The notes below the pieces were generated by a model. That model was given only the letters and a program-made list of their open reading frames with translations, did no database searches and was not told the origin of the DNA. A stretch of DNA of 58,928 bases from a virus. The DNA lies in the IMG/VR virus record IMGVR_UViG_3300025872_000063, positions 1 through 58,928 of that record; one strand, written 5' to 3'. Each line of letters starts with the position of its first letter. The first letter of the stretch is position 1. Shown here one piece after another: positions 30,049-52,317 of the stretch. Both the position numbers and the translations under genes were made by a program.

Positions 30049-30078
30049 ACCTGAAACTGAGAATAATATAATAAACAC

Positions 30079-30357
30079 ATGGACACCGACACAAAGAACA
30101 TCTACGTCAACGTTTACGAGATCACCCGATGCTATGGCGGCCCCGAAGAGGGCGGCTGGTGGTACGACACCGGCGTCACTCTCATCTCAGAGGAGGTTTC
30201 GAACATGGAAGAAGCGTACAATCGTCGCCTCGAACTGCTCGAGGACTATCCTCGCACAGATCGTCGATACTCGGTTCTCGGCGGAGATGACTACGACATT
30301 CTGATCGAAGACACTCCCGGCGAAGACTTTCCCGCCTACAGGCCTCGCTACGAGTAA
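30079..30357 (+). CDS. Small acidic protein, leaderless
   Basis: A 92-residue protein (MDTDTKNIYVNVYEITRCYGGPEEGGWWYDTG...), beta-rich at first, then an acidic end. TATAAT (30067-30072) is exactly 6 nt before ATG, implying a leaderless mRNA. It is the first gene of the promoter island. Similar small proteins occur in actinophages; function unknown. Confidence 0.75.
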   Translation: MDTDTKNIYVNVYEITRCYGGPEEGGWWYDTGVTLISEEVSNMEEAYNRRLELLEDYPRTDRRYSVLGGDDYDILIEDTPGEDFPAYRPRYE

Positions 30358-30381
30358 TTCTGAGAAGAATATAATTACAGC

Positions 30382-30537
30382 ATTGGCGCTGCCTCCCGCA
30401 CCGAAAGGTGTCAGAGAGCCACAACGACTGTCATGGCAGCCAGCAGTCGGACGTACCATGCAATAGGTAGTGCATGGACCCTCTACGTGGGGTAGGGGCA
30501 CGTAGGCCGGCGCCGCAGCGGTAAACCTGCGGCACTT
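30382..30537 (+). ncRNA. Structured noncoding RNA A (~155 nt)
   Basis: Driven by CTGAG-N5-TATAAT (30360-30375) and ending before the next such promoter. Five hairpins can be drawn: CACC-GAAA-GGTG (30399-30410, GNRA loop), CGACTG / CAGTCG (30425-30449, inner TGG-CAG-CCA), CCATGCA / TGCATGG (30456-30477), CTACGTG / CACGTAG (30483-30505) and GCCGCAG / CTGCGGC (30512-30533). No convincing ORF is present. No known RNA family is recognised. Confidence 0.65.
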
Positions 30538-30581
30538 TCTGAGCAGAGTATAATGTGCTCATCAACGACGAAAGGAACACC

Positions 30582-30905
30582 ATGACCACCACGACTACGA
30601 CGACGACCGTCGTCATCAGTTCGAACGCGACCGTTCTCGACCAGTCGGTCGAAGCGATCATCACCAAGTTCAACGAGACCAAGGCCGCGATCAAGGCGCT
30701 GCAGGCTCAGAAGGACGAGCTGGACACGCAGCTTCGCGAGATGCTTCTCGGTAATGACGTCGGCACCATCAACGGTGTCGAGCGCATCCGCGTCGTCCAG
30801 CGCAACAACAGCAAGATCGACCGCGATCTGCTCAAGACTGCGTGGCCCGAGGCGTACGAGGCGACTCTCGTCGAGACGCCCTACACCGTTCTCCAGGCCA
30901 AGTGA
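30582..30905 (+). CDS. Thr-rich, coiled-coil small protein
   Basis: A 107-residue protein with a run of Thr after the start (MTTTTTTTTVV), a coiled coil (IITKFNETKAAIKALQAQKDELDTQLREML) and a globular end (NSKIDRDLLKTAWPEAYEATLVETPY). GAAAGGAACACC precedes ATG 30582, and a strong terminator follows. Function unknown. Confidence 0.7.
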   Translation: MTTTTTTTTVVISSNATVLDQSVEAIITKFNETKAAIKALQAQKDELDTQLREMLLGNDVGTINGVERIRVVQRNNSKIDRDLLKTAWPEAYEATLVETPYTVLQAK

Positions 30906-30909
30906 TCTC

Positions 30910-30949
30910 TTCCGGGAGGGTGCGCTGCCTCCTTCGCGCCCTCCCGGAA
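30910..30949 (+). terminator. GC-rich terminator hairpin
   Basis: TTCCGGGAGGG and CCCTCCCGGAA form an 11-bp stem with an 18-nt loop after the stop codon. The next promoter begins 5 nt later, so the hairpin insulates the cassettes. Confidence 0.75.
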
Positions 30950-30996
30950 GAATCTGAGTCGAGTATAATACAATTACACACAACGAAAGGAACACC

Positions 30997-31449
30997 ATGA
31001 CCACCACGACCGCCATTGGACAAGCTCTCTACATCGAGGCCTACAAAGAGGTCGGCGCCAACAAGAACGTGCTGCAGATGCTGCTCGCTCCCGAGACGAC
31101 TGACTCGCTCGGCAACAAGGTCAAGATGACGATGTACCGTCGACGCATCTCGACTCTCGCTCCTCGTAAGACCTGGAAGTCCTGGCGCTCGCCGTTCGAC
31201 GTCTCCTCGGTCATTTCCGCAGGTCTCGCGCTGCCGGACGCCGTCGATCGCATTCTCTCGTTCACTGACTCGACGTTCAGTGCACTTGTCAATCCGACGG
31301 CCGACTACAAGCTCGCCGGCCCTCCGATTCTTGTTGACATCACTCAGGACGATGTCAAGGAGCTCGCCGCCGGCAAGACTCCCTACAAGATCTTCGGCCG
31401 CGTCTGGCGCTGCCGTAAGAAGCTCGGCTACCCGGACGAGTTCCTGTGA
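30997..31449 (+). CDS. Hypothetical protein, 150 aa
   Basis: A protein beginning MTTTTAIGQALYIEAYKEVG, with a basic central segment (MTMYRRRISTLAPRKTWKSWRSPF) and a C-terminus ending YKIFGRVWRCRKKLGYPDEFL. GAAAGGAACACC precedes the ATG, and its promoter is at 30954-30969. It sits just before the AAA+/VWA pair. Function unknown. Confidence 0.7.
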   Translation: MTTTTAIGQALYIEAYKEVGANKNVLQMLLAPETTDSLGNKVKMTMYRRRISTLAPRKTWKSWRSPFDVSSVISAGLALPDAVDRILSFTDSTFSALVNPTADYKLAGPPILVDITQDDVKELAAGKTPYKIFGRVWRCRKKLGYPDEFL

Positions 31450-31509
31450 TCTGAGCTCTGTATAATACTTATTACATAATTAACAACGACAACGACGACA
31501 AGGACAACC

Positions 31510-32511
31510 ATGACCACCACGCACTCCTCAACCGGCAGGCTGCACCCCGAACTTCCGGCAATTCTCTTCGAGTTTGCAACTCAGTCGTGCGACGCTACTT
31601 CCGCAGATAAGATCTCCGCAAGGGTCATCCCTGCAGGCAAGGCGGTGACTCGCACTATCAAGGAGAAGCCCACCGTGCCCTCAACAACCACTCCCGTAGC
31701 TGCTCTCAAGGGCGCCACTTTGTACCTCCGCCCGAACGGCGAGGCGTACTACACCCGCTCGTGGGGTGAGCACGACGACGTCAACGTCCTCCGTGAAGGC
31801 CGTGCCGGCGGCCTCTACTCGCTCATCTACGGCGAGCCCGGCTGCGGCAAGACGGCACTCGTCGAGGCTGCGTTCGCCGAGGAGAGCGGTGGCTTGTTCA
31901 CCGTTCTCGGTTCCGGTGACACCGAGGTCGCCGACCTGGTCGGCGGCTACGTGCAGACGCCCAGCGGAAACTTCGTCTGGGAAGATGGCCCGCTCGTGAA
32001 GGCCGCAGAGGCCGGCGGAACGCTTCTCGTCGACGAGATCGGTCTCATCGACACGAAGGTGCTGGCTGTCATGTACGGCCTCATGGACGGTCGCCGTGAG
32101 TACACCGTCACCGCGAACCCCGAGCGAGGCACTGTCAAGGCTCAGTCCGGGTTCTATGTTGTCGCCGCGACAAACCCGAACGCGCCAGGTGTTCGGCTTT
32201 CCGAGGCTCTTCTGAGCCGGTTCCTGCTCCAGGTCGAGATGACCACCGACTGGTCGCTCGCCAGGAAGCTCGGCGTTCCGACCCAGATGGTCACTGTCGG
32301 CCAGAATCTCTCCAAGAAGCGGACCTCGAACGAAGTTTCGTGGTGCCCGCAGATGCGAGAGCTTCTCGGGTTCCGCGACATCGAAACTCGGTTCGGCACC
32401 AAGTTCGCGATCAGCAACCTGCTTGCAGCAGCCCCCGAGATCGACCGGCCCACGGTCGCCGACGTGTTCAGTCGAGTGTACGGCGAGCCCTGCTTGCCTG
32501 CCAAGATCTGA
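31510..32511 (+). CDS. MoxR/CobS-type AAA+ ATPase
   Basis: A 333-residue AAA+ ATPase. Walker A YGEPGCGKTALVEAAF near 106-120, GSGDTEVADLVGGYVQ, Walker B GTLLVDEIGLIDTKVLAVMYGLMDGRREY, sensor FYVVAATNPNAPGVRLSEALLSRFLLQVEM. This is typical of MoxR/NorQ/CobS ATPases, which act with VWA-domain partners to remodel proteins or insert metals. The partner is the next gene. The first ~80 residues are low-conservation and basic. Own promoter at 31451-31466 and terminator at 32521. Confidence 0.85.
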   Translation: MTTTHSSTGRLHPELPAILFEFATQSCDATSADKISARVIPAGKAVTRTIKEKPTVPSTTTPVAALKGATLYLRPNGEAYYTRSWGEHDDVNVLREGRAGGLYSLIYGEPGCGKTALVEAAFAEESGGLFTVLGSGDTEVADLVGGYVQTPSGNFVWEDGPLVKAAEAGGTLLVDEIGLIDTKVLAVMYGLMDGRREYTVTANPERGTVKAQSGFYVVAATNPNAPGVRLSEALLSRFLLQVEMTTDWSLARKLGVPTQMVTVGQNLSKKRTSNEVSWCPQMRELLGFRDIETRFGTKFAISNLLAAAPEIDRPTVADVFSRVYGEPCLPAKI

Positions 32512-32520
32512 GCGCAGGCT

Positions 32521-32558
32521 TGCGGCGGGTTGCCTCGTGGTGGTCGCAGCCCGCCGCA
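32521..32558 (+). terminator. Terminator after the AAA+ gene
   Basis: TGCGGCGGG and CCCGCCGCA pair around a 20-nt loop just after the stop; the promoter of the VWA gene begins 4 nt downstream. Confidence 0.7.
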
Positions 32559-32607
32559 GAATCTGAGTAAGTTATAATGACTAAGTACCCACAACGAAAG
32601 GACGAAC

Positions 32608-34404
32608 ATGGGACACTACAACTTTAGGAGCACGAAGACTGCTCACTCCACATCGCATCCCGAGTGGCTCGCTGTCAGTGCAGCTATCGGACGCATGGTC
32701 AACTTCTGGTCTGGACGCTACGATGTCGCAGCGTTCGCTGGCCCCGGAGCTGGCGAGGGTCATCCAGCCTTCTTCAATCCGAACACCAGCGAGGTCGAGG
32801 TCAACATTGAGAAGTGCTTTGGGCCGGCAACGACTCCCGCAGAGGTTGCGAACATCGATCAGCGATCGGTGCAGTTTGAATGGCCTCGGGCGACCGGCGC
32901 GATTCTTCACGAGTCGTTGCACGCGCGCTATTCGTTCTGGAGCCTCATCGAGGCGCACGACACCCTGACTCCCGCCGAGTTCAACGCTCTCGTTCTTCTC
33001 GAGGAGGGACGAATTGAAGCTCTCGGCATCAAGGCGCTCCCCGGCAACGAACTCTTTCTTCGGACGATGGCGCTCGAGATCGTCCTTGACTCGTTCAAGG
33101 ACATCAACTCGCCATCGGACACGGTGCTCGCAGGCAACATTGCAGCTCTCTCGCTTGCCCGAGTCGACGCCGGCGTACTGACTGACGACGACGTTGCGTC
33201 CATCCGTGATCTCATCTCGGAGAAGCTCGGCGAATCGACGCTCGAGGCTCTCCGTGAGCTCTGGCTGCAGGCTCAGTCGCACAACGACGCGTCGTCCGCC
33301 GAGCCGCTCTACGAGATCGCCCGTGAGTGGGTGCGTGTCATCAACAGCGCGGCTGTCGAGAATGGCGAGCCCGACCCGGGCGCCGGCCAGGACGACGCCG
33401 ACGAGCTCATGTTCAGTCGATTCGGTGAACTGCTCGGTGACATGCTCGACACGGCAGCGGCTGACGTAAGCATCGCAGTGTTCGATGATCTTGCCGACCA
33501 GCAGATGTCCGAGGAATGGAAGAAGGTTGCCAGCGACAAGGCGTCGCAAGCCAAGGACCGCAAGGACGCCGAGAAGATCGCCAGCGACGTCTTCAGCAAG
33601 GGCACGCAAGAGATGCAGACTTCGAAGTCTGGCAGCTCCGTGATCTCATCTCGTGCGCCTAGTGGCGACGAGCGTGCCGCTGCTGTCATCATTGCAAGGC
33701 AGCTCGACAAGGCGAAGTATCGCGATCGCGACGCGACCGAGATCTCGTCGGTCGTTCCTCCCGGTCGACTGCGCACTCGAGCTGCGATGCAGGCCGAGGC
33801 CCTCAAGTCGAAAGGCGCGATGGCCACGGCCGAGCCATGGCGGCGCACCGTCCGCAAGCACACTGACGACCCGACACTTTCCATCGGCGTGATGGTCGAC
33901 ATCAGCGGTTCGATGGGTGATGCGATGCAGCCGATGGCTGTCGCCGCCTGGGCGCTCAGCGAGGCTGTCCGTCGAGTACAGGGCCGCGCCGCGATGGTGT
34001 ACTACGGTAGCGATGCGTTCCCCACTCTCAAGCCGGGACAGCACCTCAGCAAGGTGACCGTGTGGTCTGCGCCTGACGGAACCGAGAAGTTCGATCTCGC
34101 GTTCAAGGCAGTCAACGGTTCTCTCAATCTTCTGTGGGGCACCGGCGCCCGGCTTCTTGTCGTGGTCAGCGACGGATGCTACACGTCGGCAGAGCAGGGT
34201 GCTGCTCGCCAGGCGATGCAGCAGTGCCAGTCGGCTGGTGTCGGAGTTCTCTGGCTCAACTTCAGCGCCTACGGCAATGACGTCAGTCGAATTGTCAAAG
34301 GTACGAACACCGAGGTTGTCTACGTCAAAGGCAGCATCTCGGATGCAGCGACCGCGATTGGCTCGGCTGCAGCGAAGGCATTGACCTCCGCTGCCGCCAG
34401 CTGA
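32608..34404 (+). CDS. VWA-domain protein with HExxH metallopeptidase-like region
   Basis: A 598-residue partner of the AAA+ ATPase. Near residues 97-125 it has GAILHESLHARYSFW followed by LLEEGRIEALG, matching a zincin HExxH plus downstream Glu. The middle is an Asp/Glu/Lys-rich helical linker. The C-terminal ~190 residues are a von Willebrand A domain with MIDAS motif GVMVDISGSMGD near 430 and LLVVVSDG. MoxR-VWA pairs include the cobaltochelatase CobS/CobT. Here the added zincin-like part suggests a chaperone or protease complex; substrate unknown. Confidence 0.8.
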   Translation: MGHYNFRSTKTAHSTSHPEWLAVSAAIGRMVNFWSGRYDVAAFAGPGAGEGHPAFFNPNTSEVEVNIEKCFGPATTPAEVANIDQRSVQFEWPRATGAILHESLHARYSFWSLIEAHDTLTPAEFNALVLLEEGRIEALGIKALPGNELFLRTMALEIVLDSFKDINSPSDTVLAGNIAALSLARVDAGVLTDDDVASIRDLISEKLGESTLEALRELWLQAQSHNDASSAEPLYEIAREWVRVINSAAVENGEPDPGAGQDDADELMFSRFGELLGDMLDTAAADVSIAVFDDLADQQMSEEWKKVASDKASQAKDRKDAEKIASDVFSKGTQEMQTSKSGSSVISSRAPSGDERAAAVIIARQLDKAKYRDRDATEISSVVPPGRLRTRAAMQAEALKSKGAMATAEPWRRTVRKHTDDPTLSIGVMVDISGSMGDAMQPMAVAAWALSEAVRRVQGRAAMVYYGSDAFPTLKPGQHLSKVTVWSAPDGTEKFDLAFKAVNGSLNLLWGTGARLLVVVSDGCYTSAEQGAARQAMQQCQSAGVGVLWLNFSAYGNDVSRIVKGTNTEVVYVKGSISDAATAIGSAAAKALTSAAAS

Positions 34405-34414
34405 TTGAAGTTCT

Positions 34415-34460
34415 GGGCCGCTTGAGAGGCGTACGTCCTTTCCGTCTCTCAAGCAGGCCC
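34415..34460 (+). terminator. Long terminator stem after VWA gene
   Basis: GGGCC-GCTTGAGAG and CTCTCAAGC-A-GGCCC form a 14-bp stem with a single bulge. A second small hairpin (CCGTC-GATGCA-GACGG, 34469-34484) follows and carries the recurrent GCAGACGGG sequence. Confidence 0.75.
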
Positions 34461-34514
34461 GCCTATCGCCGTCGATGCAGACGGGCTTGATTCTGAGTCA
34501 GATATAATGACTGC

Positions 34515-34559
34515 ATGATGATTGCCCGCTGCGCGACACCTACCTTGACTGATATCTGA
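34515..34559 (+). CDS. Possible leaderless 14-residue peptide
   Basis: ATG 34515 is exactly 6 nt after TATAAT (34503-34508), the same geometry as the leaderless genes nearby. The frame encodes MMIARCATPTLTDI then TGA. It could be a leader peptide or a decayed cassette; the promoter is convincing, the gene is not proven. Confidence 0.3.
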   Translation: MMIARCATPTLTDI

Positions 34560-34560
34560 A

Positions 34561-34594
34561 TTCAGGCCTGGTAAGCGCCGCCGGTGCAGACGGG
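34561..34594 (+). repeat. Copy of the TTCAGGCCTGG...GCAGACGGG element
   Basis: About 34 nt with a conserved left part (TTCAGGCCTGG) and right part (GCAGACGGG). The closest copies are at 40212-40250 (intergenic) and 28760-28800 (inside the CHAP-like gene). Shorter relatives end in the same right part just upstream of promoters at 38404, 42074 and 42489. Confidence 0.5.
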
Positions 34595-34628
34595 TCCGCT
34601 TCTACAATAGCTACAGCTGAAAGATCAA

Positions 34629-34787
34629 ATGGGACTCTTCACCACGTACATCGGATATAGACTCGGAAGAAAGAAAGCCGCCGCTGAGATCGAAGACATG
34701 CTCGACGATCGTTGCGAGAATTGCGGACACACGCTCAGTCAGCATTCGCGCGATGGACGCCAGCTCTGCCCGACCTATCCAAACTGA
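34629..34787 (+). CDS. Small zinc-knuckle protein
   Basis: A 52-residue protein (MGLFTTYIGYRLGRKKAAAE...) with DDRCENCGHTLSQHSRDGRQLCPTYPN, a probable CxxCxH...H...C zinc site. GAAAGATCAA precedes the ATG; a TACAAT lies at about 34606. The stop TGA lies inside the next CTGAG promoter. Function unknown. Confidence 0.7.
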   Translation: MGLFTTYIGYRLGRKKAAAEIEDMLDDRCENCGHTLSQHSRDGRQLCPTYPN

Positions 34788-34818
34788 GACACGTATAGTG
34801 TAATCGAAAGGACACGCC

Positions 34819-34983
34819 ATGAAATACATTGTTCGACGCGCCGTGATCAGTCTGCCCGTCTTCATCTTCTTCGTCCGTCGATTCGACGAGCGAGAACTCG
34901 CACCGTACGCTTCCTGGCTGTGGGCCAGTCTGCTGATCTGGGCGATCTGGACTGCTCTGTCCGCCATCGCTGACCCAAACTGA
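34819..34983 (+). CDS. Small two-segment membrane protein
   Basis: A 54-residue protein with a first hydrophobic segment (AVISLPVFIFFV) and a second (ASWLWASLLIWAIWTALSAI). GAAAGGACACGCC precedes the ATG, and its stop lies in the next CTGAG element. Function unknown. Confidence 0.7.
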   Translation: MKYIVRRAVISLPVFIFFVRRFDERELAPYASWLWASLLIWAIWTALSAIADPN

Positions 34984-35004
34984 GATCACTATAGTAGGCG
35001 ACAT

Positions 35005-35118
35005 ATGATTATCGAAACTGATGACTGGCTCGAGCAAGCATACGAAGACAGATTCTCCGTCGACGACAACGATGACGCCTATTTCGACGAACTCGACGAC
35101 GATGATGAATCTGAGTAG
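35005..35118 (+). CDS. Tiny acidic protein
   Basis: A 37-residue protein (MIIETDDWLEQAYEDRFSV...) with an Asp/Glu-rich end. TATAGT is 9 nt before the ATG, so the leader is almost absent. The TAG stop is formed by the next promoter (CTGAGTAG). Function unknown; a nucleic-acid mimic is conceivable from charge only. Confidence 0.6.
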   Translation: MIIETDDWLEQAYEDRFSVDDNDDAYFDELDDDDESE

Positions 35119-35158
35119 AGTATAATGTACTCATCAACCAACGACGAAAGGACACAAG

Positions 35159-35527: not shown

Positions 35528-35530
35528 CAT

Positions 35531-35743
35531 ATGGCGAAGCCATCGATTCAAGACGCAATTGACATACTCAACAACTACGCCGGCGACGTGATGCTGATTG
35601 GTATCGACAAGGTGGCAGAACATGCAGGGCTCAAGCCGAGGGTCGTTCGCAAGTTTACGATCAACGTGCTCGAGGGCAAGAACGCTGACATTCGAAAGAT
35701 CCTCTTGTCAGTCAAAGCTCTAAAGGAGTCCAATGAAGCTTGA
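35531..35743 (+). CDS. Small helix-turn-helix-like protein
   Basis: A 70-residue protein, paralogous to the gene at 48798: VMLIGIDKVAEHAGLKPRVVRKFTINVLEGKNADIRKILLSVKAL matches the same spacing there (VAxxAGxKPxxVxKF...K..DxRKI). The pattern suggests a compact DNA-binding unit. It overlaps the next gene by 11 nt. Function unknown. Confidence 0.7.
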   Translation: MAKPSIQDAIDILNNYAGDVMLIGIDKVAEHAGLKPRVVRKFTINVLEGKNADIRKILLSVKALKESNEA

Positions 35744-36399: not shown

Positions 36400-36430
36400 C
36401 CTAGAAACTGTGAAGAGTATAATGGTAGAC

Positions 36431-36816: not shown

Positions 36817-37503
36817 ATGCCGAACTGGTGCAACAACAACATCTCAATCAGCGGTCCCAAGGCCGACACCGATGCGTTCTTTGCACGTATCGACCACAAG
36901 GACAACGACATGTCCATCCTGCAAACCTTCCTCCCCATGCCCGAAGTGCTGAATGGCACTGTCTCTCCCACCCCAACCTCTCCTGACCCCCACCCAAACT
37001 GGGCGAACATGGTCGCAGAGGGCACAATGACTCAGGAGCGGTACGATGCACTGTGCGCCGACCAGCGCGAGCGGTACGAGAGAGGGCAGAAGTCCTTCAC
37101 TCAGACTGGCTATTACGACTGGTGGCACTGGCAGAACACCAACTGGGGTGTCAAGTGGGGTGACTCGGACACGTCCATCACTCTGTATGAAGATGGCTCC
37201 ATCTCAGGAACTTTCACCACCCCTTGGGGTCCGCCTATCGAGGGTATCCTTCGCATCTCACTGCAGTTTCCGAACTGCACTTTCTGCATCTCTTGGTATG
37301 AACCTGGAATGTGCATGATTGGCGCAGCACGAATCGTCAACGGCGATATTGTCGATGAAACTGAGATCGGACAGGATGAGTGGCCTTCATGGGACGAACA
37401 GGACGATGGCGCCGCGTATGAGGAAGCCATCGACACGCTGGTAACTCGGTGTTCCGCTGAGATCATGTGGGGCGTCGACAGTAGCTCAGGCAACACAAAC
37501 TGA
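36817..37503 (+). CDS. YubB/DUF1281-like ferredoxin-fold protein
   Basis: A 228-residue protein. It begins MPNWCNNNISISG, the classic start of the Api92/YubB-like (DUF1281) family, and has YYDWWHWQNTNWGVKWGDSD and FTTPWGPPIEGILRISLQFPNCTF in the expected order. The family is frequent on plasmids and phages with no proven function. GAAAGGACACACA precedes the ATG; its stop lies in the next promoter. Good confidence in family, none in role. Confidence 0.8.
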   Translation: MPNWCNNNISISGPKADTDAFFARIDHKDNDMSILQTFLPMPEVLNGTVSPTPTSPDPHPNWANMVAEGTMTQERYDALCADQRERYERGQKSFTQTGYYDWWHWQNTNWGVKWGDSDTSITLYEDGSISGTFTTPWGPPIEGILRISLQFPNCTFCISWYEPGMCMIGAARIVNGDIVDETEIGQDEWPSWDEQDDGAAYEEAIDTLVTRCSAEIMWGVDSSSGNTN

Positions 37504-40307: not shown

Positions 40308-40475
40308 ATGAAGTGCAAATGCGCGATGTGCGGACGAGACAACTCCGCCAAACTGGGCAGGGCGTCGTACGCCCGTTCAGGGATCTACACCTCCGAGCAA
40401 AAGTCCAAGGGCGACATCAAGCGCATCGAACGTCGCCTCCGTCGTCGTCGTGAGAACTTCGACCTCTCTTTCTGA
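40308..40475 (+). CDS. Small zinc-type basic protein
   Basis: A 55-residue protein (MKCKCAMCGRDNSAKLGRA...) with a CxCxxC start and a very basic helix (KRIERRLRRRRENFDLSF). GAAAGGACAGCAG precedes the ATG; its TGA lies in the next CTGAG. A nucleic-acid-binding role is plausible from composition. Confidence 0.7.
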   Translation: MKCKCAMCGRDNSAKLGRASYARSGIYTSEQKSKGDIKRIERRLRRRRENFDLSF

Positions 40476-40493
40476 GAAAGGTATAATGACACC

Positions 40494-40655
40494 ATGATCA
40501 GCTACGAACACAAGGGGGGCGCATGGCTGCTTCCTCTCACTGGAACACGCGACGTCCCGACGTGCCAAGACTGCGAAGAGACCAATGGTCTCGAGTTCGT
40601 GTCCTGGATCGACGCCTACCTCTGCCCTGAATGCCTAGCTAACGAACTTGGCTGA
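40494..40655 (+). CDS. Leaderless zinc-ribbon protein
   Basis: A 53-residue protein (MISYEHKGGAWLLPLTGTRD...) with PTCQDCEET and YLCPECLANE, a two-knuckle zinc ribbon. TATAAT is exactly 6 nt before ATG. Function unknown. Confidence 0.7.
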   Translation: MISYEHKGGAWLLPLTGTRDVPTCQDCEETNGLEFVSWIDAYLCPECLANELG

Positions 40656-40885: not shown

Positions 40886-41166
40886 ACAACATCAACCGCA
40901 CGAAGAGCGCTTCGGCACCGACGTACGGTAGCAAGTCACAAGACGTTAGACGCAAGCCTCTGGCACGATAAGGCTCTCAGCATCCAAAGCGATACTGCTC
41001 TACGACGACCATGGCGTCGCACCAGTCCCTCCTCACGGATCAGATCCGTCCTCCTCTGTACGCATCCGCCACTCTAATCGTCTTACTCTGCTACCCGACT
41101 GCTCCCCGGCCAAGGAGCAGAACGCCGGGCGTTTCCGGAGACCAGCCGGAGCGTTCTTCATGTGGT
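40886..41166 (+). ncRNA. Structured noncoding RNA B, copy 1 (~280 nt)
   Basis: Transcribed from CTGAG-N5-TATAAT (40864-40879) and ending at the next promoter; no good ORF. A long-range helix pairs GGTAGCA (40927-40933) with TGCTACC (41089-41095) and GACGTTAGA (40942-40950) with TCTAATCGTC (41073-41082, one bulge). Between them, a core identical to copy 2 holds CGACG / CGTCG and ACGGAT-CAG-ATCCGT hairpins flanked by TCCTCC-like single strands. A 3' hairpin CTGCTCC / GGAGCAG (41099-41120) follows, then a conserved TCCGG / CCGGA stem. Confidence 0.75.
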
Positions 41167-41216
41167 TGATTCTGAGCAAGTTATAATGTACTTACCAACG
41201 AGGAAAGGACAAAGCA

Positions 41217-41387: not shown

Positions 41388-41440
41388 CGGCGCCTCGAGC
41401 GCTGGCCGGCGCCTCGAGCGCTGGCCGGCGCCTCGAGCGC
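41388..41440 (+). repeat. Tandem GC-rich palindromic repeat
   Basis: A 19-nt unit (CGGCGCCTCGAGCGCTGGC) occurs twice and a third time truncated, directly after a stop and before a promoter. GGCGCC and CTCGAG are self-complementary, so hairpins can form. Related to the GCCGGC/CTCGAG arrays further right. Confidence 0.75.
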
Positions 41441-41998: not shown

Positions 41999-42106
41999 CC
42001 GCCACGGCGGGCCGGCGCAATGAATGCCGGCCCGCCAGGCGGCGCAATGCAGACGGGCCACTTCTGAGCAAGTTATAATGTACTTACAACGAGGAAAGGA
42101 CACACA

Positions 42107-42271
42107 ATGAAGACGAGCAACGAACTTCTCAAGTTGGTCAGGGAGAGCGTGGAGCTCGCGGACGAGCGCAAGAACGTCGGAACGCTTGGCCCGTGGGAGG
42201 CGATCGGTATTCTCAAGAGCACGGTCAACTTTCTCATCACGCACATCGAGCGTGATCAGACTTCTGAGTAA
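42107..42271 (+). CDS. Small helical protein
   Basis: A 54-residue protein (MKTSNELLKLVRESVELADE...), ending HIERDQTSE with its TAA given by the next promoter. GAGGAAAGGACACACA precedes the ATG. Function unknown. Confidence 0.65.
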   Translation: MKTSNELLKLVRESVELADERKNVGTLGPWEAIGILKSTVNFLITHIERDQTSE

Positions 42272-43277: not shown

Positions 43278-43556
43278 ATCAACCGCACGAAGAGCGCTTC
43301 GGCGCCAACGCGGACGAACCCAAGATAAGGCTCTCTAGCAAGCCTCTGGCACGATAAGGCTCTCAGCATCCAAAGCGATACTGCTCTACGACGACCATGG
43401 CGTCGCACCAGTCCCTCCTCACGGATCAGATCCGTCCTCCTCTGTACGCATCCGCTACTTGAATCCGTCCTCTTGTACCGTCCACCAGTCCCCGGCCAGG
43501 GACTGAAGCGTCGGGGTTTCCGGAGACCAGCCGGAGCGTTCTTCATGTGGTTGATT
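43278..43556 (+). ncRNA. Structured noncoding RNA B, copy 2 (~280 nt)
   Basis: Second copy, from promoter 43256-43271. The ~120-nt core (about 43339-43457) is identical to copy 1, as is the last ~60 nt. The two variable windows differ in sequence yet keep the pairing: GGACG (43312-43316) with CGTCC (43479-43483), CAAGA (43321-43325) with TCTTG (43471-43475), and the 3' hairpin CAGTCCC / GGGACTG (43486-43505) in place of CTGCTCC / GGAGCAG, around the same CGGCCA loop. Confidence 0.78.
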
Positions 43557-43601: not shown

Positions 43602-43727
43602 ATGGATGACGCGATCGAGGCCTGCTGGTTCTGCGGAGACGCCAACGTGCTCATGGTGATCGACGACTGGGAATACGGCGAGTTCGGGGTGTGCACCGAC
43701 TGCGCGGACGATCCCGGCCTGAGCTGA
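43602..43727 (+). CDS. 41-residue zinc-knuckle protein, copy 1
   Basis: MDDAIEACWFCGDANVLMV...GVCTDCADDPGLS has CxxC...CxxC, a minimal zinc ribbon. GAGGAAAGGACAAAGCG precedes the ATG. An identical copy with the same promoter and downstream repeats is at 44565. Function unknown. Confidence 0.72.
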   Translation: MDDAIEACWFCGDANVLMVIDDWEYGEFGVCTDCADDPGLS

Positions 43728-43785
43728 GGCCGGCGCTCGAGCCGGCTGGCCGGCGCTCGAGCCGGCTGGCCGGCTGGCCGGCGCA
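43728..43785 (+). repeat. GCCGGC / CTCGAG palindromic array
   Basis: Units of CGCTCGAGCCGGCTGGCCGG repeat between stop and promoter. GCCGGC pairs with itself across a GCTCGA loop, giving terminator-like hairpins. Related arrays are at 43979-44003, 44272-44327, 44691-44777 and 45073-45139. Confidence 0.75.
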
Positions 43786-44271: not shown

Positions 44272-44327
44272 GCCGGCGCTCGAGCCGGCTGGCCGGCTGA
44301 GCCGGCTGGCCGGCTGGCCGGCGCAAG
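44272..44327 (+). repeat. GCCGGC palindromic array
   Basis: Copies of GCCGGC(TG)GCCGGC and GCTCGA lie between the stop at 44271 and the next promoter. Same family as the array at 43728. Confidence 0.7.
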
Positions 44328-44564: not shown

Positions 44565-44690
44565 ATGGATGACGCGATCGAGGCCTGCTGGTTCTGCGGA
44601 GACGCCAACGTGCTCATGGTGATCGACGACTGGGAATACGGCGAGTTCGGGGTGTGCACCGACTGCGCGGACGATCCCGGCCTGAGCTGA
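44565..44690 (+). CDS. 41-residue zinc-knuckle protein, copy 2
   Basis: Identical at DNA level to the gene at 43602, including promoter, ribosome site and the first ~50 nt of the downstream GCCGGC array. This shows recent duplication of a whole cassette. Function unknown. Confidence 0.72.
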   Translation: MDDAIEACWFCGDANVLMVIDDWEYGEFGVCTDCADDPGLS

Positions 44691-44777
44691 GGCCGGCGCT
44701 CGAGCCGGCTGGCCGGCGCTCGAGCCGGCTGGCCGGCGCTCGAGCCGGCTGGCCGGCGCTCGAGCCGGCGAGCAGGC
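44691..44777 (+). repeat. GCCGGC / CTCGAG palindromic array (longest)
   Basis: Four GCTCGAGCCGGC units in tandem after the duplicated zinc-protein gene and before a promoter. Unit number differs from the copy at 43728, as expected for slippage or recombination. Confidence 0.75.
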
Positions 44778-45072: not shown

Positions 45073-45139
45073 GGCCGGCGCTCGAGCCGGCGAGCCGGCG
45101 CTCGAGCCGGCTGGCCGGCGCTCGAGCCGGCGAGCAGGC
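45073..45139 (+). repeat. GCCGGC / CTCGAG palindromic array
   Basis: Three GCTCGAGCCGGC units between the stop and the promoter of RNA C. Same family as the arrays to the left. Confidence 0.7.
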
Positions 45140-46987: not shown

Positions 46988-47052
46988 CAACTAGTGAAAC
47001 CTAAAACTAAGAATGCTACAATGTCAATATCACCCGCCGAGAAAGATCAACT

Positions 47053-47397: not shown

Positions 47398-47660
47398 AAA
47401 ACCTATTCAGCGAGATAGATATCAAAACTCTCTATGATTCAAAAGATCGCATTGACAATCTTTGCGATGTTGCGGACAGGTTTGACGTTATTCATGATCT
47501 AATCGTCGAAAGACTGTCAAACAGCGGTGGAACACGCGAGGAATGGACCTCTGCCGAACTATTTGAACGCGCCGGAGCCTGCGTCCGCGGTATAGCGCAC
47601 CAGCTCGCGGACAATGAAGAGTCCCATAAATCGTCGATTGAAGGCCGCATCCATGCGTAG
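47394..47660 (+). CDS. Helical protein, 88 aa
   Basis: Its ATG overlaps the previous stop (ATGA). MKNLFSEIDIKTLYDSKDRIDNLCDVADRFDVIHDLIVERLSNSG followed by AELFERAGACVRGIAHQLADNEE is fully helical and acidic. Function unknown. Confidence 0.65.
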   Translation: MKNLFSEIDIKTLYDSKDRIDNLCDVADRFDVIHDLIVERLSNSGGTREEWTSAELFERAGACVRGIAHQLADNEESHKSSIEGRIHA

Positions 47661-47808
47661 CGTCCCCGCTGATTGGGATGGTGAATCGCACTGTGTTCAT
47701 TGCGGTAAGCCGGCGACGCACACATCTCCAACAGGAATGGTCGACGACTTACCGTGCGTCGAACTAGTATGCTGTTCCTGCGCACAACTCGAGACAAACC
47801 ATGACTAA
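47653..47808 (+). CDS. Small zinc-knuckle protein
   Basis: A 51-residue protein; ATG 47653 overlaps the previous stop. HCVHCGKPATHTSPTG and VELVCCSCAQLE provide two CxxC pairs, like small FYVE/ribbon knuckles in phage proteins. Function unknown. Confidence 0.68.
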   Translation: MRSVPADWDGESHCVHCGKPATHTSPTGMVDDLPCVELVCCSCAQLETNHD

Positions 47809-48004
47809 CAAGACTAGTGACATCGCACACCAGGCGCGGCAGATAGCTTTCGCTGTGTCAGTCAACGAGCAACACCGTATCGGCAATGAAGCGGCTGACG
47901 AGATCGAACGTCTACGCTCCGCGGGTGACGCGCTGGCTGATGGTATCCGCAGAGGGCACTGGGACGACGTACTTAACAAATGGGATGAATTGCGCCATGG
48001 CTGA
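47801..48004 (+). CDS. AADEIERLR-family protein (plus-strand chain)
   Basis: A 67-residue protein with GNEAADEIERLRSAGDALADGIRRG, the same core as the minus-strand cluster at 20.8-22.7 kb. The C-terminus DELRHG overlaps the next start (ATGGCTGATAATATC). Function unknown; homology across the two clusters is clear by eye. Confidence 0.7.
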   Translation: MTNKTSDIAHQARQIAFAVSVNEQHRIGNEAADEIERLRSAGDALADGIRRGHWDDVLNKWDELRHG

Positions 48005-48119
48005 TAATATCGTGACACTCATGCGGACGCACTGCGTCATGCTGGCAGAGAAGTGGGGTGTCTCATCAGACTACATCACCCGCCCTTGCTCATTCTGCGG
48101 CGAGGCCTGTCGTGACTGA
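47997..48119 (+). CDS. Small DDIV-type protein with zinc knuckle
   Basis: A 40-residue protein starting MADNIVTLMRTHC (compare VADDIVTRLR in the other cluster), ending PCSFCGEACRD with three Cys. Start and stop both overlap neighbours. Probably a truncated chain member. Function unknown. Confidence 0.55.
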   Translation: MADNIVTLMRTHCVMLAEKWGVSSDYITRPCSFCGEACRD

Positions 48120-48294
48120 TAACATGAAATATCGCGTGGTCGCTGCTTTGGAATTTTTGTGCAGCAAGACGCACTGGCTGGTCCATCGTCGTCCGTTCAT
48201 TTACGTGATTCCGCCGTGCGGACTTACCCTGCTTTCCATCCGTCTGGACGATCGCTGGAATACTGGCTATTGGAAGGATCGTCGCCGTGGATGA
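48112..48294 (+). CDS. Small chain protein, 60 aa
   Basis: GTG 48112 (VTDNMKYRVVAALEFLCS...) overlaps the previous stop, and its end (YWKDRRRG) contains the next start. The VTDN start resembles VTDD of the family, but the AADEIERLR helix is absent. Function unknown. Confidence 0.55.
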   Translation: MTDNMKYRVVAALEFLCSKTHWLVHRRPFIYVIPPCGLTLLSIRLDDRWNTGYWKDRRRG

Positions 48295-48490
48295 TTACAT
48301 CTTGACTGATCTGTTGCACGGTATTCCAGCTGAAGATATCTGTAAACGAGCCGCCGATGAGATCACTCGTCTGCGCACCGCTCTCGCGATTGCGGCAGGA
48401 ATGCTCTCCACTACTCTAGAGTTCACGCATCGTCATCCTCAAACAGTAATGGAAGAACTCCTCGCGGAGGCTAGTCATGACTATGCATGA
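48287..48490 (+). CDS. AADEIERLR-family protein
   Basis: A 67-residue protein from GTG 48287 (VDDYILTDLLHGIP...) with CKRAADEITRLRTALAIAAGML, a family core, and a helical end (TVMEELLAEASHDYA). Coupled to both neighbours. Function unknown. Confidence 0.65.
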   Translation: MDDYILTDLLHGIPAEDICKRAADEITRLRTALAIAAGMLSTTLEFTHRHPQTVMEELLAEASHDYA

Positions 48491-48761
48491 ATCAGCACCG
48501 GATCCAAACGCGCCTCGAGTCGCCGGCCGACTTGTAGATTCCGGTGAATACTTTGCGGTAAGTCAAGAATGGCCGACGCCTTCATATTCAGTCAAAGACT
48601 GGAAATGGGACGAACAGAACGGCTGGTACAATGTTGATGACGATCCTGCCACACCGAACGAAGCAATTTTGCTAAACGAGATCAAACGACTAGTGGCAAT
48701 CAATTCTTCTCTTCGACAACAGATTCTTGATTACGCGGTAAAACGCAGCGCTCACCAGTAG
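48477..48761 (+). CDS. Chain protein, 94 aa
   Basis: ATG 48477 lies in the previous gene's end. A Trp/Asp-rich first half (WKWDEQNGWYNVDDDP) precedes a helix (NEAILLNEIKRLVAINSSLRQQILDYAV) that may be the family coiled coil. Function unknown. Confidence 0.6.
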   Translation: MTMHESAPDPNAPRVAGRLVDSGEYFAVSQEWPTPSYSVKDWKWDEQNGWYNVDDDPATPNEAILLNEIKRLVAINSSLRQQILDYAVKRSAHQ

Positions 48762-48797
48762 TACACAAAGATAGCAACTATTAGAAAAGAGAAAAAC

Positions 48798-49073
48798 GTG
48801 GCAAGAGAACGTCTCGGAGTAGACGCAAGAGATCTAGTTGATGCGCTCAACGACGTTGCGGCGCAAATCAGAAAACTCGGCGTCGAGAAGGTTGCGGCAA
48901 AGGCTGGCGTCAAACCTTCAATTGTCAAAAAGTTTATCGCTGACGCGATGAAATCAAAGACATCAGATGTGCGAAAGATTCGAAATGCGGTCAAAGAGAT
49001 GCTATCACCCTCGCCAGAAATTCCAGACTCCGGCAAAGCAAACATCCAAGACACCGACAGCGATACGAAGTAG
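48798..49073 (+). CDS. Helix-turn-helix-like small protein (paralogue of 35531)
   Basis: A 91-residue protein from GTG 48798. LVDALNDVAAQIRKLGVEKVAAKAGVKPSIVKKFIADAMKSKTSDVRKIRNAVKEML is paralogous in pattern to the 35531 protein. Probably a small DNA-binding unit. A short acidic tail follows. Function unknown. Confidence 0.7.
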   Translation: MARERLGVDARDLVDALNDVAAQIRKLGVEKVAAKAGVKPSIVKKFIADAMKSKTSDVRKIRNAVKEMLSPSPEIPDSGKANIQDTDSDTK

Positions 49074-49086
49074 ACGGCACATAAAC

Positions 49087-49605
49087 ATGGGAATGGATGT
49101 AGTTGGAATAGATCCCAGTTCGGAAGTCGGCAAATACTTCTATCGAAATGTCTGGAATTGGAACTGTCTCTGGACGTATTGCGAAGAAAGTCACCCAGAT
49201 GTTTGCTCAGACGTTCAATACGCATACAGCAACGTCGGCGACGGTCTGGACGCAAGTGATGCGGAGCAACTTGCTCGAGGACTGCTTTCTGACGTAAATT
49301 CGGGTGCAGCATACGAATACGTGACTAGCAGAAATCTTATCCTGTCTGCGGCGAAAAACAAAATATGCGGTCTATGCGACGGTACGGGAGTTCGGACAGA
49401 CGAAGTCGGAATTGATCTAGGGATGCCGCAGATGGAGTTAAACAGCGATCAAGTCGCCAAACTTGGCAGGAACTACGGCTGGTGCAACGGCTGTCGCGGT
49501 GAAGGCATGACGAACCTGTGGGAAAAGAACGGAAAGTTGGAAGTTGATGACATCGTTGAATTCGCTAGGTTTCTTGAATCAAGCGGTGGATTTAGCATTC
49601 AATGA
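49087..49605 (+). CDS. Protein with DnaJ-type zinc finger, 172 aa
   Basis: Starts MGMDVVGIDPSSEVGKYFYRNVWNW, a beginning common in phage proteins of this length; the middle is acidic, then CGLCDGTGVRTDE...GWCNGCRGEGMTN, two CxxCxGxG units as in DnaJ. The tail VDDIVEFARFLESSGGF is helical. Its stop overlaps the next ATG. A recognisable but unassigned phage family. Confidence 0.75.
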   Translation: MGMDVVGIDPSSEVGKYFYRNVWNWNCLWTYCEESHPDVCSDVQYAYSNVGDGLDASDAEQLARGLLSDVNSGAAYEYVTSRNLILSAAKNKICGLCDGTGVRTDEVGIDLGMPQMELNSDQVAKLGRNYGWCNGCRGEGMTNLWEKNGKLEVDDIVEFARFLESSGGFSIQ

Positions 49606-49781
49606 ATCCAGAAGACGAAAACACCGACTATAATTATGCAATTCACAGAAGTACTTGCAGTTCATTCGATGAAACATGCTACGGACAAGTTGAATTCCAT
49701 CTAATCGGAAAAAGTCCAGTAGCTCGAGCGCTCTGTGAACTTCATGCCGAACGCAGACGTGCTCTATTCAACACCGAATAG
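49602..49781 (+). CDS. Small protein, 59 aa
   Basis: ATG 49602 overlaps the previous stop. MNPEDENTDYNYAIHRSTC...TCYGQVEFHLIGKSPVARALCELHAERRRA has an acidic start, three Cys and a basic helix. Function unknown. Confidence 0.62.
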   Translation: MNPEDENTDYNYAIHRSTCSSFDETCYGQVEFHLIGKSPVARALCELHAERRRALFNTE

Positions 49782-49846
49782 ATTACCAAACTTAAAACTA
49801 AGAAGTGTACAATGTCCATACAACAACGACGACGATCGGAGAGACA

Positions 49847-50050
49847 GTGAAGGTTCATAATCATAGTTGGGCTGCGGTTTCAATGCTTGGGCAGTTCGTC
49901 AGCGCACTTCTCTGCGCGTTCGAGACCGCGAATGATCGCCCCATTCTTCTTGTTCCCACGGTCATTCTTGTCGCAACAGCGATTCTGACGTTTGCCGGCT
50001 GGGAGAAGCTCGAGCTGCGTTCTGAACTCGAGATCGAGAACGCGAAGTGA
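49847..50050 (+). CDS. Small membrane protein, two segments
   Basis: A 67-residue protein from GTG 49847 with CGGAGAGACA upstream. Hydrophobic segments WAAVSMLGQFVSALLCAF and ILLVPTVILVATAILTFAGW flank a short loop. CTAAG-N5-TACAAT promoter at 49798-49813. The stop overlaps the next GTG. Function unknown. Confidence 0.68.
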   Translation: MKVHNHSWAAVSMLGQFVSALLCAFETANDRPILLVPTVILVATAILTFAGWEKLELRSELEIENAK

Positions 50051-50271
50051 CCGCTTCAAAAATTGAGATCAGTGCGGCAAAAACAGCCTCAAACCGCACA
50101 AAAAATCGTCTTCATGAGAATGGGGCAGTCTTTGAATTTGTAAGTCAAAGCACTCCTCCTGCGATGCAGAGTCCTAGCATCCTTGTTCGTTCTACAGAGA
50201 CCGGATGGTTCGGATGGTTTCCGTTGAACGAAATAACGTTTAAGCACGTTGAAGATGGAGCAGACGCGTGA
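50047..50271 (+). CDS. Small protein upstream of thyX
   Basis: A 74-residue protein from GTG in the previous stop; basic start (TASKIEISAAKTASNRTKNR) and ILVRSTETGWFGWFPLNEITF, a small beta pattern. Its TGA overlaps the thyX start. Function unknown. Confidence 0.62.
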   Translation: MTASKIEISAAKTASNRTKNRLHENGAVFEFVSQSTPPAMQSPSILVRSTETGWFGWFPLNEITFKHVEDGADA

Positions 50272-50951
50272 GTGACCCAGTTTCAAGTAGCTACGGATTC
50301 GTTCGACTGGACGCACACATGGCAGATGATCTATCTGTCGTTAACTCGGCTCGCGTTTCATTCGCGAAACATACGGATACACTTGATATTGCGGACAAGG
50401 CACTCATCAATTTTCTTATGCGCGAACGCCACGGTACGCCATTCGAGCACAACGCGTTTCGCTTTCATGTCAAGTGTCCAATTTTTGTCGCTCGAGAATG
50501 GTTTCGCCACCGCATCGGCTCGTTTAACGAATTTAGCGCAAGATACTCCGTGATGCCGCCTGAGTTCTACATTCCAGAGGAGTCCGCGGTCAGACATCAA
50601 GTCGGCAAGCCCGGATCATACACTTTTGAAATGATCGAGGACTCAGCCACACGTGAAAACGCGCGGAGAGCAATGTCATCAGTGATTAAACAGTCAATTA
50701 GAATGTACAATTCTCTTTTGGCTGGCGGCATCGCAAAAGAGTTAGCTAGAAACGTTCTCCCAGTGTCGATGTACACTCAATTTTATTGGACTGTAAATTC
50801 ACGGTCACTGATGAATTTTCTTCAACTACGGTCTTCTGACGCGGCTCAATACGAAATTCGTCAGTATGCTGTTGATATTGAAAAGCATTTTGCGGAAATC
50901 ATGCCGATAACCTACTCCTCATGGATCGACAACGGCAGAGTCACACCATAA
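50268..50951 (+). CDS. thyX: Flavin-dependent thymidylate synthase
   Basis: A 227-residue ThyX, converting dUMP to dTMP with FAD, NADPH and methylene-tetrahydrofolate. The signature WFRHRIGSFNEFSARYSVMPPEFY matches RHRxxSxNExSxRY; HGTPFEHNAFRFHVKCPIFVAREW precedes it and ARNVLPVSMYTQFYWTVNSRSLMNFLQLRSSDAAQYEIR follows. GTG start within the previous stop. Together with NrdJ it gives the phage its own dTTP route. Confidence 0.93.
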   Translation: MSDPVSSSYGFVRLDAHMADDLSVVNSARVSFAKHTDTLDIADKALINFLMRERHGTPFEHNAFRFHVKCPIFVAREWFRHRIGSFNEFSARYSVMPPEFYIPEESAVRHQVGKPGSYTFEMIEDSATRENARRAMSSVIKQSIRMYNSLLAGGIAKELARNVLPVSMYTQFYWTVNSRSLMNFLQLRSSDAAQYEIRQYAVDIEKHFAEIMPITYSSWIDNGRVTP

Positions 50952-50994
50952 TTAATTCATGCAAAAAGTAGTACACACGCCGAAAGGAGGTATG

Positions 50995-51099
50995 ATGCGG
51001 TTCAATATTGAAATTGTAAACAGCGTTGCGGCCATCGCAACGGCTTTGACTGTGTTCCTTCTCGGAGGACTTGCAATCGCAAATAAGCGATTAAAGTAA
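50995..51099 (+). CDS. 34-residue membrane protein
   Basis: ATG 50995 follows AAAGGAGG at ideal spacing. MRFNIEIVNSVAAIATALTVFLLGGLAIANKRLK is a single hydrophobic segment with a basic end. Too short for many gene finders, but the ribosome site is the strongest in the window. Function unknown. Confidence 0.65.
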   Translation: MRFNIEIVNSVAAIATALTVFLLGGLAIANKRLK

Positions 51100-51134
51100 G
51101 TAAACTAAAATAGGAATAATGATTGTTTAGTTTG

Positions 51135-51203
51135 GCATCTGTTAGGCACTTAGTAGAAAGCCTGCGGCACTTAGTAGAAAGCTGCGCTCATCAGATGCTT
51201 TTA
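51135..51203 (+). ncRNA. Structured element with twin hairpins
   Basis: An outer stem GCATCTG (51135-51141) / CAGATGC (51192-51198), followed by TTTTAT, encloses two hairpins with the same loop: GGC-ACTTAGTAGAAA-GCC and GCGGC-ACTTAGTAGAAA-GCTGC. It may be a terminator, a small RNA or a protein-binding site. No known riboswitch is recognised. Confidence 0.55.
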
Positions 51204-51290
51204 TGTTAGTAATTGAAGAGTTGCCGCTTCATATAATCGGTCTGGCCCGGACCGTACGGTAACAGGGCATCTACACTACAAAGGATGAGA

Positions 51291-51653
51291 ATGACAACGA
51301 CGCCATACGACCCGCTGACTGTCATCGAGTCTGCCTTCCTTGAATTTGTTGAACGCGGACTGCTTGACAAGCACCTTGAGACCTATAAAAAGACAATTGA
51401 TTCTCGTCTACTCTTGCTTCGAAAGTCAAGAGATGTTGACGATTTTGAAATCGGAGATACGGTACGTTTCAACGATTTTTGCGGTACAGCGTATCTGCGC
51501 GGTCTAACTGCCAGTGTTGTCGGAATTGATAAGTCAAAGCTCATCGTGAAACTTTTGGTCCCAGTCGGAAGATTTATCAGGGTCGTAAACGGTATAACTG
51601 AATCAGCAGAGATCCGCGTCCCTCCGTCCATTGTCGATCGCTTGGCGGTTTAA
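51291..51653 (+). CDS. Small beta-barrel-like protein, 120 aa
   Basis: ATG 51291 follows AAAGGATGAGA. A helical start (DPLTVIESAFLEFVERGLLDKHLETYKK) is followed by an SH3-like pattern (DFEIGDTVRFNDFCGTAYLRGLTASVVGIDKSKLIVKL...), as in KOW/Tudor-type domains. Its TAA overlaps the following WhiB ATG. Function unknown; a nucleic-acid or protein contact is plausible. Confidence 0.7.
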   Translation: MTTTPYDPLTVIESAFLEFVERGLLDKHLETYKKTIDSRLLLLRKSRDVDDFEIGDTVRFNDFCGTAYLRGLTASVVGIDKSKLIVKLLVPVGRFIRVVNGITESAEIRVPPSIVDRLAV

Positions 51654-51913
51654 TGATTCACTCACACTCTAAACCGACCTGGATGCGGATCGCTGCCTGT
51701 GTTGACGCCGAAAACGTTGACATATTCTTCGACGAAACGCACCGAAAGAAAGTAAACGCTGCAAAGAAAATTTGCAGAGCCTGCCCGTCAATGCAGCAGT
51801 GCCTGGAGTACGCGATCAGACATCAGGAGCACGGCGTTTGGGGAGCAACGACTACGAATGAACGCGCAAAATTTATGCGCGCTACTCGCCGTATAGCACA
51901 ATCTACTGATTAA
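51653..51913 (+). CDS. WhiB-family iron-sulphur regulator (second copy)
   Basis: An 86-residue WhiB-like protein: RIAACVDAENVDIFF, then ICRACPSMQQCLEYAI with CxxC...C and the GVWGATT turn for a 4Fe-4S cluster. The basic tail (RAKFMRATRRIAQS) is short. Start overlaps the previous stop. Like the copy at 19385, it may redirect host transcription or block superinfection. Confidence 0.88.
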   Translation: MIHSHSKPTWMRIAACVDAENVDIFFDETHRKKVNAAKKICRACPSMQQCLEYAIRHQEHGVWGATTTNERAKFMRATRRIAQSTD

Positions 51914-51935
51914 ACGTGTAGTATTGTGACCTCTT

Positions 51936-52097
51936 GTGAAAACGCGTAAAGAAATCGAACCTCCTTCATCGTGGAAGTGTCCACTGTGCGATAACGCGAC
52001 TACGGTATACGTTGTTTTGGACTATCCACCAGCGTGTCAATCAAAACGTCATCGCGGCAAAATCGTGGATATGGAAAGGCGCACGAGTAAAAAATGA
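51936..52097 (+). CDS. Small zinc-type protein
   Basis: A 53-residue protein from GTG 51936 with WKCPLCDNATTVYVVLDYPPACQSKRHRGK, a CxxC then C...H knuckle, and a basic end. Its TGA overlaps the next ATG. Function unknown. Confidence 0.65.
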   Translation: MKTRKEIEPPSSWKCPLCDNATTVYVVLDYPPACQSKRHRGKIVDMERRTSKK

Positions 52098-52258
52098 GAT
52101 TTATGCGGTATGCAATTTTTCCGATCGCTATTGCGGTAACAGTTGTCGCTGTTCTCGAAGCAATGTGGAAAACAGTCAGAGACGAGATCACAAATGACGA
52201 CACGGGTATTTCAACTCTCTTAGGAGTCGTTCATCCGCACGCCGAAAAGAAAATCTGA
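52094..52258 (+). CDS. Small membrane protein
   Basis: A 54-residue protein (MRFMRYAIFPIAIAVTVVAVLEA...) with one N-terminal membrane segment and a charged tail. Start overlaps the previous stop; its own stop lies in the following CTGAG-N5-TACAAT promoter. Function unknown. Confidence 0.65.
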   Translation: MRFMRYAIFPIAIAVTVVAVLEAMWKTVRDEITNDDTGISTLLGVVHPHAEKKI

Positions 52259-52317
52259 GAAGTATACAATGATGTTTACTTATTGATTTTCAATGGGTAT
52301 ATTGAGATTGAAAAGAA

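Follow-up and report, generated by a model that had tools for sequence, protein, structure and literature searches.

A phage promoter array in which a conserved upstream element appears to stand in for the -35 box

The subject of this study is a 58,928-base stretch of viral DNA (the complete IMG/VR record IMGVR_UViG_3300025872_000063, hereafter the window), which contains a long array of short, regularly built elements ahead of tiny genes. Each element combines the block CTRAG with a TATAAT-like hexamer exactly five nucleotides (nt) downstream, and the arrangement leaves us almost certain that these sites are promoters. Judged by its sequence, the array is a genuine noncanonical promoter class that has no -35 box and keeps an invariant spacing. 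The window, a complete record yet a genome fragment, carries genes for a primase-polymerase, a resolvase, Fpg, nrdJ, WhiB, a MoxR ATPase, a VWA protein, thyX, a terminase and PhoH. It is largely colinear with the Actinomycetia phage DSL-LC01 (terminase identity 85.6%), a 129-kb genome assembled from a lake metagenome, whose description does not mention promoters (PMC10611076).

The pattern CTRAG-N5-TAYADT matched 51 times in the window (50 on the plus and one on the minus strand), compared with 0.20 matches expected from dinucleotide shuffling (standard deviation (sd) 0.43, maximum 2, 100 shuffles). Two matches end in TATATT (23820, minus strand; 29056, plus strand). The remaining 49 plus-strand copies, of the form CTRAG-N5-TA(T/C)A(A/G)T and 16 bp each, span positions 30057 to 52270, in good agreement with a preliminary description of the window that had reported about 50 copies there. 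They start at 30057, 30360, 30539, 30954, 31451, 32563, 34493, 34784, 34980, 35111, 35896, 36768, 37500, 37821, 38297, 38394, 38697, 38909, 39280, 39913, 40265, 40472, 40669, 40864, 41172, 41446, 41730, 42064, 42264, 42479, 42648, 42837, 43068, 43256, 43557, 43790, 44008, 44330, 44520, 44783, 45145, 45337, 45602, 45909, 46217, 46805, 47007, 49798 and 52255. The invariant spacing that had been claimed was borne out when spacings of 0 to 20 nt were scanned: N5 yielded 51 matches and all other spacings combined yielded 5 (0-2 each). Between 30.0 and 47.1 kb, every plus-strand TATAAT has CTRAG at the N5 distance except the one at 36418 (CTGTG), and this conservation is therefore not a product of the search pattern alone. 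The exception belongs to a one-mismatch copy (CTGTGAAGAGTATAAT, 36408..36423, plus strand) with an ATG close downstream.

The position of the transcription start was deduced from leaderless genes. Nine window copies place an ATG exactly 7 nt past the hexamer: the copy CTGAGAAAGGTATAATGACACCATG at 40472..40496 and, with the same layout, those at 30057, 34493, 41446, 42264, 42479, 42648, 44330 and 45909 (all plus strand). Our simple in-house gene caller, in which leaderless starts received a bonus, called all of them as leaderless genes apart from the ninth at 34493. Across a pooled set of 348 sites from ten phage records, the window included, the distance from hexamer to ATG was 7 nt in 66 and 8 nt in 16 cases, and practically no ATG lay nearer. 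Because a leaderless gene cannot begin before +1, the start should lie 7 nt past the hexamer, which is also where the leadered copies favor A. With +1 fixed in this way, WWCTRAG covers -24 to -18 (WW at -24/-23 and the CTRAG block at -22 to -18), so the earlier placement of the CTGAG block near -26 to -21 has to be revised. Most other copies are followed by a leader of 21-24 nt with a GAAAGGA-type ribosome site, as exemplified by the copy CTGAGCAAGTTATAATgtacttAcaacgaggaaaggacacacaATG (42064..42109, plus strand), in which the inferred start A, the ribosome site GAGGAAAGGA and the ATG follow one another with a leader of 21 nt.

All 51 window copies have A/T at both positions 5' of CT. G directly follows the hexamer in 71% and A stands seven nt past it in 78% of these copies; G-14 is present in 71%, and T-15 in 12% as compared to 46% of all pooled sites. 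In the pooled set, where the CTRAR and TAYADT columns were set by the pattern and hence not counted, A/T occurs at -24/-23 nearly everywhere, G-14 in 78% and A at +1 in 70% of the sites, and positions -42 to -28 contain almost no information. Neither a conserved column at the -35 position nor the TTGACA-like box at 16-18 nt of canonical sigma-70 promoters was found across the window copies, and TTGACA/TATAAT pairs in the array region showed no clear excess over shuffles (12 vs. 8.0, sd 2.8). In the same genome, nrdJ has a perfect canonical TTGACA-N16-TATAAT promoter (17255..17282, plus strand). On both points, the missing -35 box and the normal nrdJ promoter, the preliminary description was correct.

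Almost all array copies sit between or abut tiny genes, and in about 16 cases the element reaches or runs into the stop codon of the gene before it. Coding sequence makes up ~77% of the region, yet no more than three hexamers fall within called genes. The match at 29056..29071 (plus strand) falls within a called gene and possibly arose by chance. The copy CTGAGTGGGATATATT at 23820..23835 (minus strand) precedes the minus-strand gene 23289-23777 and had been thought to drive the chain of genes at 23.8 kb; the match and its WW are indeed present and the called gene starts 36 nt after +1, which makes its assignment as a promoter plausible but tentative. Eight copies have no called open reading frame (ORF) downstream, and two of these begin paralogous, strongly structured RNAs of ~280 nt each whose 5' and 3' ends pair. 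One extends from the +1 of the 40864 promoter (40886-41171, plus strand; minimum free energy -107 kcal/mol, z -4.6) and the other occupies 43278-43556. An Rfam scan of the array RNAs identified only tRNAs and gave no match for these two. The earlier proposal of a class serving tiny genes and RNAs is thus supported, the RNAs being represented by at least the two structured ones. Intrinsic terminators between the array units were not more frequent than in shuffles.

Two 41-amino-acid (aa) proteins with CxxC pairs (43602-43727 and 44565-44690) are identical and each has its own array promoter, which shows a recent duplication of the cassette. GC-rich tandem repeats (GGCCGGCGCTCGAGCCGGCT) occur between promoter cassettes at 41388-41440, 43728-43774, 44282-44322, 44691-44770 and 45074-45139, directly upstream of several array promoters.

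A megablast search of the array region against phages gave no match, and the exact motif CTGAGNAAGTTATAAT hit 33 IMG/VR contigs once each, a result in line with chance, so that this pattern revealed no other CTGAG-form array. A scan of related genomes, as had been suggested, uncovered a sister form, WWCTAAAG-N4-TATAAT, which makes up arrays of 15-61 copies in DSL-LC01 and nine IMG/VR records (G004 and G005 are near-identical phages, and G009 resembles both). These arrays are one-stranded save for an occasional stray match. The 32 CTRAAG-N4-TATAAT-type sites of DSL-LC01 are all on one strand within 22.6-43.3 kb of the complete 129 kb, its tiny-gene region. The C of the element falls at -22 in the window form and the sister form alike. 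On the array strand, TANNNT stands 4 nt past WWCTAAAG in 30/31 (DSL-LC01), 52/53 (G009), 56/59 (G005) and 15/15 (G010) cases, and a -10 occurs at the same distance in 40/44 and 21/24 cases in two further records; the fraction is lower in G002 (22/32) and G008 (16/24). WWCTAAAG is rare on the opposite strand. Being tied to a -10 in one orientation, it behaves as a polar core-promoter element and not as a free-standing operator. The predicted promoter class is thus widespread within one phage family. It is probably undescribed so far, as a literature search of incomplete coverage found no description of the CTRAG/CTAAAG motif.

The junction between the MoxR and VWA genes, an orthologous position that was compared across the family, provides the strongest sequence-based evidence that the motif acts as a promoter and that the class of promoter would be a property of the clade. 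Here the CTRAR form is found in the window (32563..32578, plus strand), DSL-LC01 and the phage L042. Canonical promoters prevail among the more distant relatives, the pattern TTGAC-N15-19-TANNNT being present in at least 34 of 66 phages, and 10/66 contain CCTGA-TATAAT; several of the 18 unclassified junctions visibly contain TTGACA. When each phage was labeled with the class of its array, the three labels required 3 changes on the MoxR tree vs. 14 in shuffles. Whole clades therefore appear to have changed promoter class. The sister array class CCTGA-TATAAT-AGTACTAAC was observed in L043-L046, L048, L050-L053, L058 and L105, where a TAGTACTA palindrome lies across the start site and, in some, tandem TATAAT boxes overlap. 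Other relatives (L054, L060, L064, L090, L095, L097, L056 and L100) have no CTRAR arrays; in the corresponding region they contain different repeats, each specific to a lineage (GGTAAAAA, GTATTTATTTTTTCT, GTATCCACTTTTT, AGTAAAAAGTAAAAA, TGCTATCAAGGGA and TGCTACTAAGA).

Sigma region 2 (PF04542) was not detected in 13 records including the complete DSL-LC01, whereas control genomes gave matches, and isolated region-4-like helix-turn-helix matches above the cut-off occurred only in G001, G016 and the phage Pumpernickel. The host RNA polymerase is thus the likely reader, and its form with the primary sigma factor very probably uses the array promoters. The preliminary description had considered the WhiB proteins as determinants of the specificity. 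WhiB genes (in the window 19385..19738, PF02467, E 5.6e-11, and 51653..51913, PF02467, E 3.6e-17, both plus strand) occur in most CTRAR records, but also in G016, G024, G025, G026 and Pumpernickel, relatives that do not have the motif array. As they are found in relatives with other promoters too, WhiB does not explain the motif. Moreover, the site read by one WhiB-sigma-A activator (WhiB7 type) is AT-rich and lies just upstream of an existing -35 hexamer (PMC3905903), and the array copies have neither such a hexamer nor a bias toward A/T between -42 and -28. A polymerase of altered specificity may serve the array, and so may the unmodified host enzyme.

A small helix-turn-helix protein tracks the motif better than WhiB. 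Its family, represented in the window by a 70-aa protein at 35531..35743 inside the array region and a 91-aa paralog at 48798..49073 (both plus strand), is present in 9/11 CTRAR records, and the DSL-LC01 homologue of the 35531 gene comes directly after a CTAAAG promoter at 37313. AlphaFold predicted a confident four-helix model (pLDDT 90.6), for which the best Foldseek matches in the PDB were of the HipB, SinR and 434 Cro types (probability ≤0.99, E near 0.1-1). The sequence profile weakly matched LacI headpieces (E 0.04), and a short-peptide search of IMG/VR with the protein returned no relatives. On balance we lean slightly toward a phage adaptor as the reader of the element, and regard the small helix-turn-helix protein as a tentative candidate for this role.

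In the explanation that we favor, which we rate at about even, the array is a promoter class whose element replaces the -35 box and which is used by the host sigma-A polymerase, probably together with a phage adaptor. Each copy would be a self-contained promoter for one tiny gene, small operon or RNA. TATAAT at -12 to -7 would be opened by the host polymerase carrying the primary sigma factor, and transcription would start 7 nt downstream. In place of a -35 box, the copies have WWCTRAG (in the sister phages WWCTAAAG) at -24 to -18/-17 and a preferred G-14, and the element would assume the anchoring role of that box. A DNA-binding phage adaptor, for which the helix-turn-helix family is the best candidate, would read the element, and the phage could thereby switch all of its tiny genes in concert. 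Directly visible in the sequence are the element with its constant spacing and orientation, the missing -35 box, the confinement to a single gene class and the class differences at the orthologous junction, and +1 follows from the leaderless genes; from the lack of sigma region 2 we infer the host polymerase as enzyme, and a phage adaptor as reader is a further inference. More tentatively, the adaptor might dock at -24 to -18, with sigma regions 2-3 or the beta' zipper as its neighbor, and replace the contact between the -35 box and sigma region 4, and whole clades might have acquired or exchanged this mechanism at dozens of promoters at once. Several observations weigh against this explanation. 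The preferred G-14 and the consensus -10 could suffice for the polymerase, with no adaptor needed. Co-occurrence of the helix-turn-helix family with the motif is imperfect, as G002 and G010 yielded no member of the family and a divergent one exists in three CCTGA-class phages; for G002, whose array reaches the contig end, truncation may be the reason. The window record has no structural and replication genes, so that the complete DSL-LC01 serves as a proxy for factors encoded there, and some copies may be alike through recent duplication.

The main rival to an adaptor is an intrinsic contact of the "Z-element" kind, a real if lesser possibility, in which the host RNA polymerase alone reads WWCTRAG with the help of G-14 and the sites are strong constitutive early promoters requiring no phage factor. 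Given the +1 from the leaderless ATGs, the position of WWCTRAG coincides with that of the Z-element, which spans -24 to -18, is contacted by the beta' zipper and affects abortive transcription on a synthetic promoter (PMC4496709). An extended -10 can make up for a missing -35 (PMC10911233). At the MoxR-VWA junction, the promoter of the sister clades is CCTGA-TATAAT, which has an extended -10 and no -35. Natural core promoter elements are usually degenerate, whereas CTRAG is nearly invariant and the phage element is repeated 15-61 times per phage. The canonical nrdJ promoter in the same genome makes the array class look dedicated, and the sequence specificity of the Z-element contact was left open in the review describing it (PMC4496709).

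It is less probable, and in our view unlikely, that the element is an operator through which a Cro-like phage repressor jointly silences otherwise strong -10 promoters. WWCTAAAGWW is partly dyad-symmetric with weakly complementary flanking A/T pairs, and the small protein that accompanies it is similar in fold to HipB/434 Cro (Foldseek probability ≤0.99, E ~0.1), but a repressor site needs neither a fixed spacing to the -10 nor a fixed polarity, most records contain hardly any site standing on its own, and the window form CTGAG makes a poor dyad. Dyad symmetry was rejected as proof of a dimer site, since covariation within records was only weak. We give little credence to a polymerase or sigma factor, encoded by the phage or carried in the virion, that recognizes the whole 25-bp motif. 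The conserved motif is contiguous from -24 to +1, and DSL-LC01 encodes a 3289-aa unannotated protein between its portal and capsid genes (52800-62669; L107, 2800-12669), possibly a virion-delivered enzyme. However, no phage-encoded sigma factor was detected in the 13 records, a T7-type polymerase gave no match (a weak argument, as the control was also silent), and TATAAT and its spacing to the start are typical of primary sigma factors. Least plausible by far is a start-associated or translation-linked repeat that is no promoter and was copied along with gene cassettes, as the 41-aa gene has been; the 5' leader and ribosome site are conserved too in many copies, but leaderless copies leave no room for a ribosome site before the ATG, other copies precede the ORF-less RNAs, and relatives have canonical promoters at the same MoxR-VWA junction.

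Among known systems, T4 middle promoters, which depend on sigma appropriation by AsiA and MotA, are similar in that they serve a phage-specific gene class and combine a consensus -10, often extended, with a short box that replaces the -35 and is read jointly with the host sigma factor. The MotA box of T4 is centered at -30/-31 (PMC6755090), whereas the window element is centered near -20/-21, about one helical turn downstream, and no signal was found at the MotA position. A docking adaptor would resemble sigma appropriation of the T4 type, shifted downstream by one helical turn. The 30 larger window proteins had no Pfam match to MotA or AsiA, although no search was aimed at these families. With extended -10 (TGn) promoters the array shares the lack of a -35 and G-14 in 71-78% of its copies, but position -15 is A or T with no conserved T, and the main element is located further from the start; the sister phages use the true TG form. 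Short conserved motifs ahead of small genes are also known from actinophages, such as SAS/ESAS in clusters K and EF and an 18-bp asymmetric motif with 12 copies in Microbacterium phages of cluster EC, whose function is reported as unknown (PMC7302621). The array motif differs from these by its clear -10, its start fixed by leaderless genes and its far higher copy number.

Host sequences were searched as well. In 296 genomes of one actinobacterial class CTAAAG-N4-TATAAT was not found, but the canonical consensus gave no match either. Regions of three of these genomes contained CTGAG-N5-TANNNT 17 times vs. ~6 at other spacings; these matches had no TATAAT and A/T flanks, were mostly coding-like and were rejected as promoters. 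In the stretches read from two low-GC actinobacterial genomes (L264-L273 and L276-L280), TTGACA-N15-18-TANNNT occurred 0 times vs. 24 and 3 times in reversed sequence, which suggests either that canonical promoters are strongly avoided or that the database has a quirk. Elsewhere in the window, positions 1-2605 carry a 9-base GTTACACCT repeat that reads as collagen-like G-x-y from the minus strand, and an ACCA repeat lies at the end of the record (58780-58922).

The ~350 aligned promoters from ten phage records represent a natural data set in which an element in the little-understood region from -24 to -18 takes the place of the -35 box. As relatives retain promoters of canonical or TG type at the MoxR-VWA junction, a change of the promoter code read by the polymerase becomes testable, and so does the question of how a whole promoter array changes class in step. 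For environmental actinophages, the motif also aids the annotation of many tiny genes and RNAs by making their starts predictable.

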